Source of the DNA: Bacillota bacterium
GTDB taxonomy: Bacteria > Bacillota > UBA4882 > UBA10575
Length of the DNA: 45,468 nucleotides
Direction of reading: 5' to 3'
Assembly (NCBI GenBank): GCA_012838955.1
Contig: DUOH01000054.1
Span: 1-45,468 of the forward strand
In this document: one piece after another, positions 10,996 to 16,582 of the stretch
How the letters are laid out: every line of letters begins with the position of its first letter
How positions within the stretch are numbered: position 1 is the stretch's first letter
The notes under the pieces: generated by a model
Told to the model about the DNA's origin: nothing
Seen by the model: only the letters and a program-made list of their open reading frames with translations
Databases searched by the model: none
Program-made: the position numbers and the translations under genes

Positions 10996-11253
10996 TTATG
11001 CCCGCTTGGCCATGGTGGCCCGGGCGCTCACGCCGGGAACATTCCCCAACCTCCCGGTGAGAGCATTAATCTCATCCTCTGTTCCTTCCACAATCAAGGC
11101 GATGGTGCCCAGGTTGCGGCTGTGGTCCGGGATTCCCATCCGGCCGATGATAACCTCCCCAGCCTCACTAATGATTTGATTTACTTTACACTGAATCTCC
11201 GTTGGGTTTTCCAGAATCACGGCGATCACGGCCAGGCGTTCTTCTTGATTCAT
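10996..11253 (-). CDS. Iron-only hydrogenase system regulator, TM1266 type
   Basis: 85 residues, a small ACT-like ferredoxin fold. The sequence LAVIAVILENP, KVNQIISEAGEVIIGRMGIP and IALIVEGTEDEINALTGRLGNVPGV is characteristic of the putative regulator family that accompanies HydE/HydF/HydG. Its action is not known; the resemblance to NikR C-terminal and ACT domains suggests ligand sensing without a DNA-binding region (inference). The start is preceded by AGAGGAGG. It lies 54 bp after the PilZ gene and could be co-transcribed with it; a strong terminator follows. Confidence 0.9.
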   Translation of the reverse strand: MNQEERLAVIAVILENPTEIQCKVNQIISEAGEVIIGRMGIPDHSRNLGTIALIVEGTEDEINALTGRLGNVPGVSARATMAKRA

Positions 11254-12006: not shown

Positions 12007-13455
12007 TTAGAGAAAAAGATCCCGTTCGCCTTCTTCCAATTTTCCCAAAGCCTCCAGCACAAAGGTTTTGCCCTTTCCCTCCGGTAACTTGGCCAACTGC
12101 TCCCGGATGACCTTTTCTCCAGCTTGCCGGGTCTCCTCATCCGCATAATCCAGCAAATACTCTTTGAGCGTACAGAGGGCGTTGGGGATACAGAAATTAT
12201 GCACAAAGCCGGTTTTGGCCAATTCCATAAAGTGTTCTCCAGTTCGCCCGGAACGGTAACATGCCGTGCAGAAAGACGGGATACACCCTGTGCGGCAGGT
12301 CTCGCGCACCACCTCGACGAGGGGACGGGTATCCCCCAACTGGAACTGTTCCTTATCCGGCATTAGGTTGGCGGTGGATTCCTGGTAACCGCCGACTCCA
12401 ATCCTACTCCCGGCGTCGATCTGGGAGATCCCCAGGGGAATCACTTCCCTGCGCACTTCCGGGCTTTCCCGCGCTGTGAGAATCATTCCCGTATAGGGCA
12501 CGGACAACCGGATGACCGCAATCAGCTTCTTGAAGTCTTCATCACTCACGGCATACGGCGGGTGAAAGGCCTCCGGGGTGTCGATCGCCGGTTGGATCCG
12601 GGGAAAAGAGATGGTGTGCGGACCAACCCCGTTAAACTTCTCTTCCAGATGGATAGTATGATAGAGCAAGCCCATGGCCTCAAATCTCCAGTCATATAAA
12701 CCGAAGAGCACGCCGATGCCTACATCGTCCACCCCGGCTTCCAAGGCCCGGTCATGGCAGTATAGCCGCCACCGGTAATGGCCTTTTAAAGTGTTGGCCG
12801 GATGCACTTGGTGATAGGTTGCATGGTGATAGGTTTCTTGAAACACTTGGAAGGTACCGATTCCTACTTCTTTCAACCGTTTGAGCTCTTCCACGCTCAG
12901 CGGGGCGCAGTTAATATTGGCCCGTCTGATCTCCCCTTTGGGGCTGCGGACACTGTAGACCTGCTTGATACTGTTGCAGAGGTAATCAATGTCGGTCTCC
13001 CCCGACTCGCCGTACACCAGAATCGTGCGCTTCTGACCTTCGCTGATCATAATCTCCACTTCACACTTGATCTCTTCCATGGTCAGTGTCTTCCGGTGAA
13101 TACTGCGATTGGAGGACCGGTAACCGCAGTATGAACAGTTGTTGCTACATTTATTGCTCATATACAGAGGAGCGAAGAAGACGATCCGGTCCCCGTACAC
13201 CTCCTGTTTTAACTTGCTGGCCAGGGCGTACATCTCCGCCAAGGTCTCCGCATCCTTGTTCTGCAGTAAAACCGCCATCTCCTCCGGTTCCAACCGGATC
13301 TGCCGGGCGGCTTTCGCCAATACCCGCCGGACATCAGCAGGCGAAGGATGCTCCCACTTATGTAAGATCCTCCAGATCTCGTCATCATCAATGAAATCCC
13401 GTTCCATCCGGTCATACTCCGCCAATTCCTTCCGATACCTTTTAAAACCAGTCAT
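12007..13455 (-). CDS. hydG: [FeFe] hydrogenase H-cluster maturase HydG (tyrosine lyase)
   Basis: 482 residues, the family length. HydG is a radical-SAM enzyme that cleaves tyrosine and supplies Fe(CO)(CN) units for the H-cluster. The radical-SAM CX3CX2C is C103, C107, C110 in NKCSNNCSYCGY. The second cluster-binding motif CX2CX22C, which separates HydG from ThiH, is present as C396, C399, C422 in CTACYRSGRTG...NFC. The start ATG follows AGGTAGGG. It has a ~390-nt leader with its own promoter and an internal terminator. hydE is not in the window; hydF lies 1.9 kb away on the other strand. Confidence 0.96.
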   Translation of the reverse strand: MTGFKRYRKELAEYDRMERDFIDDDEIWRILHKWEHPSPADVRRVLAKAARQIRLEPEEMAVLLQNKDAETLAEMYALASKLKQEVYGDRIVFFAPLYMSNKCSNNCSYCGYRSSNRSIHRKTLTMEEIKCEVEIMISEGQKRTILVYGESGETDIDYLCNSIKQVYSVRSPKGEIRRANINCAPLSVEELKRLKEVGIGTFQVFQETYHHATYHQVHPANTLKGHYRWRLYCHDRALEAGVDDVGIGVLFGLYDWRFEAMGLLYHTIHLEEKFNGVGPHTISFPRIQPAIDTPEAFHPPYAVSDEDFKKLIAVIRLSVPYTGMILTARESPEVRREVIPLGISQIDAGSRIGVGGYQESTANLMPDKEQFQLGDTRPLVEVVRETCRTGCIPSFCTACYRSGRTGEHFMELAKTGFVHNFCIPNALCTLKEYLLDYADEETRQAGEKVIREQLAKLPEGKGKTFVLEALGKLEEGERDLFL

Positions 13456-13846: not shown

Positions 13847-13875
13847 ATTATATCATAAATTTCCCCTGATGAAAA
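13847..13875 (-). promoter_or_regulatory. Predicted hydG promoter
   Basis: On the minus strand, TTTTCA (13875-13870), a 17-bp spacer and TATAAT (13852-13847). Start near 13840 would give a ~385-nt leader before hydG. The leader also contains a 7-bp hairpin at 13732-13751 (CAGTCGG/CCGGCTG). The remainder of the gap to 14053 shows no gene. Confidence 0.55.
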
Positions 13876-14943: not shown

Positions 14944-14972
14944 TTCCATATTCATGGTTCATGAGATATAAT
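14944..14972 (+). promoter_or_regulatory. Promoter of the candidate RNA upstream of hydF
   Basis: TATAAT at 14967-14972, with TTCCAT (14944-14949) 17 bp upstream as a weak -35. Predicted start about 14979. Confidence 0.6.
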
Positions 14973-14978
14973 GAAGTC

Positions 14979-15225
14979 AGGCATAGAAAAGCATATCCGC
15001 GCCAGGGTGAGTCTGGCTCACCTTGGAGAAGGAGTCGTTTCCCTGAGGCGAAAGGTCGGTACCACCGGTTACCCGGGAAGACCTGACGGTTAAGGGTGAA
15101 AGTCAAGAGTTTGACTACGGGCATCGGATCACGAACCATCAGAGGTGAAGACACACATATCTGAAATCGCCCTTGCACAGAGACCGGATTCGCCTTTTAG
15201 GGGATGAACCCGGTCTTTTCTTTTC
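14979..15225 (+). ncRNA. Candidate structured RNA or leader upstream of hydF
   Basis: About 245 nt between a promoter and an intrinsic terminator with no convincing reading frame. Several consecutive helices are visible: GGTGAG/CTCACC near 15005-15022 extended by CCA/TGG; GGTC...GACC enclosing CGG/CCG at about 15054-15085; CTGA-c-GGTT (15084-15092) with AACC-a-TCAG (15134-15142), enclosing the hairpin AGTCAA/TTGACT (15101-15116); and TCAGA (15139-15143) with TCTGA (about 15159-15163), sharing the TCAG bases. I could not match it to a known riboswitch, 6S, SRP, RNase P or tmRNA pattern from memory. It is either an independent RNA or a terminating leader of hydF, whose start is 100 bp downstream. 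Confidence 0.6.
15181..15225 (+). terminator. Intrinsic terminator ending the candidate RNA
   Basis: AGACCGG-a-TTC (15181-15191) pairs with GAA-c-CCGGTCT (15206-15216), followed by TTTTCTTTT. Confidence 0.85.
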
Positions 15226-15325: not shown

Positions 15326-16582
15326 ATGCCAGGATTGAATGAAACCCCAAGCTCATCCAGGCTGCAGATCGCCATCTTCGGGAGGAGAAACTCCGGTAAA
15401 TCCAGTATCATCAATGCCTTAACCGAGCAAACAGTCTCCTTGGTTTCGGAGGTGGCGGGCACTACCACCGACCCGGTGCGCAAAAGTATGGAACTGCTCC
15501 CCCTGGGCCCGGTAGTCTTCATCGACACCGCAGGCATCGATGATCAGGGAGTTTTGGGCGAAATGAGGGTGAAGCGCACCTTGGACGTTCTGAACCGGAC
15601 GGACCTGGCCATCCTGGTCGTCGACGGCGCCCGGGGCGTCGGGGAATGGGAAAAGAAGATCCTCGGCGCCATCCGGGAAAAGAAACTGCCGGTAGTGGGG
15701 GTGGTTAATAAGGTTGATCTGCCTGACTATCAAAGCGATCTGATCAAGGTCTGGCAGAAGGAATTGGGTCTTTCCCTAATCGAAGTCTCTTCCCTGACCG
15801 GCCGGGGAATTGACGACCTAAAACAAGCGCTCATCCGAACCGCCCCAGCCTCCCGTGAAGAACGGCCCCTCGTCTCCGACCTGATCAAACCGGGAGAAGT
15901 TGTTATCCTGGTCGTGCCTATAGACAGCGCCGCCCCCAAAGGACGGCTGATTCTCCCGCAGCAACAAGTCATCCGTGATCTCTTGGACCATGGAGCGCTG
16001 GCCCTGGTCACCAGAGAGAAAGAGCTGTCTCAAGCCCTGGCGGGAGTGGGGAAAAAGTCGGCGCTGGTGATTACGGATTCTCAGGCGTTTGGGGAGGTCT
16101 CCGCGCTTATCCCGGCCGACACTCCGCTGACTTCCTTCTCTATTATAATGGCCCGTTACAAAGGAGACCTAGATGAACTGGTCAGGGGGGCGCAAGCCGT
16201 AGAAGCCTTGCAGCCCGGTGACAGGGTACTGATCGCCGAGGCTTGTACCCACCACCGTCAGGCGGATGATCTCGGCGCCGTCAAGATCCCCCGCTGGCTG
16301 GAACAGAAGGTCGGGGGTAAACTTGATCTCCACTGGAGCACGGGGTTTAGCTTCCCATCCGACCTGAAAAGTTACAAATTAATCATCCATTGCGCCGGTT
16401 GCATGCTCAACCGCAGAGAGATGCTGTACCGAATTGCCCAGGCAAACCATGCCGGACTGCCTATTGTCAATTACGGGGTGCTCATCGCTTATCTCCACGG
16501 TATCCTTCCCCGGGCCCTCGCCCCCTTTCTGAGCGCAGGCGATCAAGGGGTCGGGACGCGGAGAGACCCGGCTACGCCTTGA
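15326..16582 (+). CDS. hydF: [FeFe] hydrogenase H-cluster maturation GTPase HydF
   Basis: 418 residues. HydF is the GTPase scaffold on which the 2Fe subcluster is assembled and from which it is passed to the hydrogenase. The N-terminal G domain shows GRRNSGKSS (residues 19-27), switch Thr in GTTTDPV, DTAG and NKVD. The C-terminal cluster site is C307-T-H309 with H355-C356-A-G-C359, fitting CxH...HCxxC. The middle dimerisation domain is intact. RBS AAGGAGG precedes ATG by seven bases. It is read away from hydG and preceded by the terminated RNA unit, so its own transcription must use read-through or an unseen promoter. Confidence 0.96.
   Translation: MPGLNETPSSSRLQIAIFGRRNSGKSSIINALTEQTVSLVSEVAGTTTDPVRKSMELLPLGPVVFIDTAGIDDQGVLGEMRVKRTLDVLNRTDLAILVVDGARGVGEWEKKILGAIREKKLPVVGVVNKVDLPDYQSDLIKVWQKELGLSLIEVSSLTGRGIDDLKQALIRTAPASREERPLVSDLIKPGEVVILVVPIDSAAPKGRLILPQQQVIRDLLDHGALALVTREKELSQALAGVGKKSALVITDSQAFGEVSALIPADTPLTSFSIIMARYKGDLDELVRGAQAVEALQPGDRVLIAEACTHHRQADDLGAVKIPRWLEQKVGGKLDLHWSTGFSFPSDLKSYKLIIHCAGCMLNRREMLYRIAQANHAGLPIVNYGVLIAYLHGILPRALAPFLSAGDQGVGTRRDPATP

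Follow-up and report, generated by a model that had tools for sequence, protein, structure and literature searches.

The products of hydE, hydF and hydG build the active site of the hydrogen-producing [FeFe]-hydrogenase. To our knowledge, how bacteria tune the expression of HydE, HydF and HydG has apparently been little studied, and in the literature searched, which had most subscription journals outside its coverage, we found no RNA-based control or leader RNA of these three genes. The closest described systems are transcription-terminating metabolite riboswitches and T-box leaders, and a tyrosine T-box would have been a logical candidate for HydG. In a 45,468-nt stretch of a Bacillota genome (GenBank assembly GCA_012838955.1, contig DUOH01000054.1; hereafter the window), a structured RNA separates sfsA on the minus strand from hydF on the plus strand. 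We propose that it is probably a cis-acting, transcription-attenuating 5′ leader of the H-cluster maturation genes, and most likely a riboswitch class outside Rfam.

The identities of HydF, HydG, SfsA and a small TM1266 protein in the window were confirmed by profile. The leader and the gene it is expected to control consist of the following features:

14944–14972, plus strand: leader promoter read in the sequence, with a weak −35 (TTCCAT, 14944–14949), a 17-bp spacer and a −10 (TATAAT, 14967–14972)
14996–15033, plus strand: hairpin of the 5′ domain, from the fold
15179–15224, plus strand: intrinsic terminator, from sequence and folds; its 5′ arm (GACCGGAUUCGCC, 15182–15194) is also the 3′ side of helices P1 and P3
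15312–15318, plus strand: ribosome-binding site of hydF (AAGGAGG), read in the sequence
15326–16582, plus strand: hydF, the controlled gene (TIGR03918, 571 bits)

The leader RNA extends from ∼14980 to 15224 (about 245 nt) and its 3′ end is a hairpin (15179–15217) followed in the sequence by TTTTCTTTT (U-tract, TCTTTTCTTTT), with the hydF start ∼100 nt beyond the terminator. Both signals are missing from generic scans, the promoter because its −35 is weak and the terminator because its stem has mismatches; the generic promoter scan also listed no promoter-like site between the terminator and hydF. Folding of 14971–15225 gave −92.6 kcal/mol compared with −77.4 ± 5.2 kcal/mol for dinucleotide shuffles (z = −2.94), and none of 200 shuffles was as stable. 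No ORF with a Shine–Dalgarno sequence occurs in this leader or in the two homologous leaders described below, so leader-peptide attenuation is unlikely. These results agree with a preliminary description of the region, which had named a TATAAT promoter, a structured RNA of ∼245 nt with consecutive helices, an intrinsic terminator, the lack of a reading frame and the lack of a better promoter before hydF; its coordinates were right.

BLASTN searches of the bacterium's own genome, 60 relatives, the class, plasmids and phages returned nothing beyond the element itself and a single chance match of 24 nt, and the element is single-copy in its genome. The most similar HydF proteins are encoded by G004 (76%) and G005 (72%), two genomes from other genera of the same family. 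In both, hydF lies downstream of hydE and hydG, and an element with its own promoter and terminator is found on the same strand upstream of hydE-hydG-hydF. The promoters sit at the matching place (TTGACT-16-TATAAT and TTGGAC-17-TATAAT), and the G004 terminator lies tens of bases 5′ of the likely hydE start codon. Both copies have, with minor differences, the motif TTTCCCTGAGGCGAAAGGT...ACCTAACGGTTAAGGGTAAAAG, followed by a distal strand and then by AACCGGATTCGTC inside the terminator hairpin. The 5′ hairpin of the window copy could not be aligned by sequence with its relatives, which also have a 5′ hairpin. To avoid circularity, a leave-one-out sequence profile was made from G004 and G005 only, with the window copy excluded. 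Its best match in the 45-kb window was 15038–15102 (E = 6.9e-7), which was also the best match when set against about 0.96 Mb of other sequence.

Two covariance models, R1 for the entire core and R2 for just the putative sensor, include the window sequence and recover the three copies, with the window scoring there by construction. When they were run against 29 genomes from the class and 398 from the phylum, no credible fourth copy appeared, and the exact core pattern was absent from viral contigs. Matches of about 20–26 bits in the 398 genomes, including one in G278, were at chance level, and a match in G322 was rejected as antisense inside a radical-SAM ORF. Matches in G329 were likewise not credible copies: they fall in tandem repeats of ∼276 bp (locus L147, 700–1700) beside a transposase-like ORF, which looks IS110-like. 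Within these repeats, CCTAACGGTTAA can pair like P* and P2, and the repeats score 25–27 bits to R2, probably by chance.

The conserved part of the RNA contains the elements of a predicted switch:

15038–15102, plus strand: conserved core and putative aptamer (alignment, relatives-only profile, ensemble probabilities)
15041–15096, plus strand: helix P*, 15041–15044 (CCCU) with 15093–15096 (AGGG) (alignment, ensemble probabilities)
15053–15084, plus strand: helix P2, 15053–15057 (AGGUC) with 15080–15084 (GACCU) (alignment, ensemble probabilities)
15047–15194, plus strand: antiterminator, with P1 (15047–15052/15189–15194), P3 (15087–15091/15182–15186) and P4 (15092–15099/15167–15174) (minimum free energy (MFE) fold in all three homologues, pair counts)

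P* closes a conserved 8×8 internal loop (GAGRCGAA / NACGGUUA) and the hairpin P2. In the antiterminator, the consensus is GRCGAA/UUCGYC for P1, AGGUY/RACCU for P2 and CGGUU/RACCG for P3, which is continued by P4. When transcripts were cut after the terminator 5′ arm, the antiterminator was the MFE structure in all three copies, and the MFE structure of every full-length transcript contained the terminator. Since P1 and P3 occupy the terminator 5′ arm, these two folds are mutually exclusive. With lengthening transcript, the predicted order was P*, antiterminator and terminator in each copy. Ensemble probabilities were mostly 0.8–0.98 for P*, 0.8–0.95 for P1 and 0.88–1.0 for the terminator; late in the series, P2 and P3 had low probability in the window copy but not in the G004 and G005 copies. 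All three copies share an identical terminator 5′ arm (ACCGGATTCG), and the 3′ arm varies, as expected if the 5′ arm has a second partner. The internal-loop nucleotides of P* are also the strand material of P1 and P3 in the antiterminator, and the loop is nearly invariant because of this double duty, which would fit a sensor competing with the antiterminator. The helices seen previously were present, but the structure that matters most is not one minimum-energy fold; it is a group of folds that exclude one another.

This arrangement bears on whether the element could be an independent small RNA that lies between sfsA and hydF by chance, an alternative in the preliminary description that has since lost ground. 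Its own promoter and terminator, and the ∼100 nt separating the terminator from hydF, would suit such an RNA. However, in two other genera the homologues precede hydE and share its strand despite differing gene order, the terminator arm doubles as an antiterminator strand and the genome has no other copy. Together, these observations make a small RNA very unlikely.

Pairing in the antiterminator was assessed across the three sequences. For its 25 pairs, 96% of cells pair, compared with 26–53% when the partners are slid by 1–3 columns. Both sides change at three of the 25 pairs (P1 position 2, P2 position 5 and P4 position 6); P1 position 2, for example, is G-C in the window, G-U in G005 and A-U in G004. 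The covariation is thin because there are only three copies, with P* and most of P1–P3 invariant, and its score was reached by 41 of 500 shuffles with these three sequences only; we consider it suggestive only. Pairing of the terminator arm yields an energy gain (MFE) that 42, 4 and 38 of 300 shuffles also reached, so the gain is not exceptional for a single copy. The case for a switch rests on the same predicted exclusive folds being kept at homologous positions. A constitutive structured 5′ leader and terminator without regulated switching, acting as an mRNA stabiliser or a fixed attenuator, would agree with the ordinary antiterminator energetics of the single sequences and with there being only three copies. 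We consider this very unlikely, since each of the three genera shows the same three exclusive folds in the same predicted order, and the P* internal loop is conserved though unpaired in P*.

Based on these comparisons, cis attenuation by the leader is well supported, which upholds the earlier suggestion of a terminating leader for H-cluster maturation: homologues precede hydE-hydG-hydF and share the predicted terminator/antiterminator switch. Two features by which riboswitches are recognised were found, namely placement before functionally related genes (hydF in the window; hydE-hydG-hydF in G004 and G005) and, computationally, a mutually exclusive terminator and antiterminator kept in homologues. 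Against this reading, copies were found in three genera only, with no credible one outside the family among the genomes searched, and such a narrow distribution is unusual for a metabolite riboswitch. The weak −35 of the window promoter and the low late probability of P2 and P3 in the window copy also count against it. The riboswitch claim is therefore provisional, due to this distribution and the thin covariation.

We propose that RNA polymerase would start near 14980 and that the core would first fold stably into P*, which encloses the 8×8 internal loop and P2 and is the putative sensor. Transcription of the 3′ part would then let P4 and P3 displace P* and P1 form, giving a three-way-junction antiterminator. 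This would hold the terminator 5′ arm, and polymerase would read on into hydF. A ligand (or protein) that stabilises P* would tie up the 5′ strands of P1, P3 and P4, the terminator would form and hydF would be off, i.e. an OFF switch. In this scheme we infer ligand binding, the identity of the ligand, the OFF rather than ON direction and transcription from the leader promoter. As possible ligands, the preliminary description had suggested iron, SAM, tyrosine or a cluster intermediate. Tentatively, the element could belong to a new riboswitch class whose ligand is a precursor of the H-cluster, or a substrate or cofactor needed to make the cluster, and which would repress the maturase genes by feedback. 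If true, this would be the first case in which RNA controls [FeFe]-hydrogenase maturation. A maturase-linked switch would also offer a defined RNA for asking what cells sense when building the H-cluster and, possibly, a genetic sensor for an unstable metallo-intermediate.

The attenuator might respond to a trans-acting RNA-binding protein instead of a small molecule, for example a member of the TM1266 family (TIGR03959, 'iron-only hydrogenase system putative regulator'). The TM1266 gene (10996–11253) is close to hydG. Of 16 genomes of the family, 15 carry the gene, among them the three that have the element, and an RNA limited to one family would suit a local protein–RNA pair. However, TM1266 is equally common without the element (all but one of the genomes that lack it have the gene), i.e. 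the two do not co-vary. We know of no RNA-binding activity of TM1266, and the literature searched contained no paper on its function. Control by such a protein is unlikely, and a small-molecule riboswitch remains our preferred reading.

Other leaders precede hyd genes in this family. In the neighbouring genus g2 (L006–L009 and L014), a different conserved leader that is not in Rfam lies ∼60–200 bases before hydF and is followed by hydF-hydG-hydE. This leader has a strong promoter and a terminator, and its two hairpins contain tandem G-A internal loops. Clear matches to a model of it (R3) came from 6 genomes, each belonging to genus g2; one of these, G012, had been left out of the model. Upstream of hydF, an uncultured Firmicute (L065, ∼150 bases) and a Clostridium (L102, ∼160 bases; R3 match, E = 0.99) have a hairpin similar to the g2 motif UCUAA-N-GAGG...CC-GAG, and these hairpins possibly form a wider hydF leader class. 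Within the window, a second attenuator is predicted upstream of hydG (13841–13571, minus strand; −10 near 13853), where the hairpin GAAGCCGGAG...CUCCGGCUUC overlaps and competes with the intrinsic terminator GCCUUUUCUG...CAGAGAAGGC, followed by UCUUUUAUUU. Since the g2 hydF leader, a different RNA, also has a terminator and the window hydG leader a predicted one, attenuation of maturase genes may be a habit of the family that uses unrelated RNAs. The maturase genes of the window themselves seem, from sequence comparison, to have differing histories because their closest relatives differ: hydG (12007–13455) is closest to genus g2 (68–70%), and hydF (15326–16582) to G004/G005 (72–76%).

The element was compared with known RNA classes. 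A scan of the window with the Rfam 15 covariance models gave no family at the gathering threshold and, at E < 10, only unrelated snoRNA/CRISPR fragments, and scanning the G004 and G005 homologues gave no relevant match, in line with its first description as an unrecognised structured RNA. It matches neither 6S RNA (RF00013) nor RNase P RNA (RF00010). The two 6S RNA genes of this genome (G000) are on contig C30 (6924–7104 and 50112–50302, both above the Rfam cut-off) and its RNase P RNA is on contig C3. Apparent similarities to motifs of the cobalamin, glycine and RNase P classes were set aside as no model matched. Kinship with the g2 hydF leader was rejected, as the only sign of it was one borderline pairwise score (L007, 164, where shuffles reached at most 145).

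The g2 hydF-hydG-hydE leader is similar in outline, with a promoter, a ∼150-nt conserved structured RNA and a terminator directly before hydF in the same family, but there is no detectable model similarity, and neither the window nor G004/G005 gave a match to R3. T-box leaders share the competition between antiterminator and terminator in a Firmicute-type leader. In contrast to these, the element has no Rfam T-box match and lacks the conserved UGGNACC antiterminator bulge; a GGUACC in P2 of the window is absent from G004. Compared with transcription-terminating metabolite riboswitches (SAM-I type expression platform), the element has a core that matches no Rfam family and was found in three genera only. 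Nevertheless, it resembles them in having an early sensor helix, and in an exclusive antiterminator and intrinsic terminator before a biosynthetic gene.
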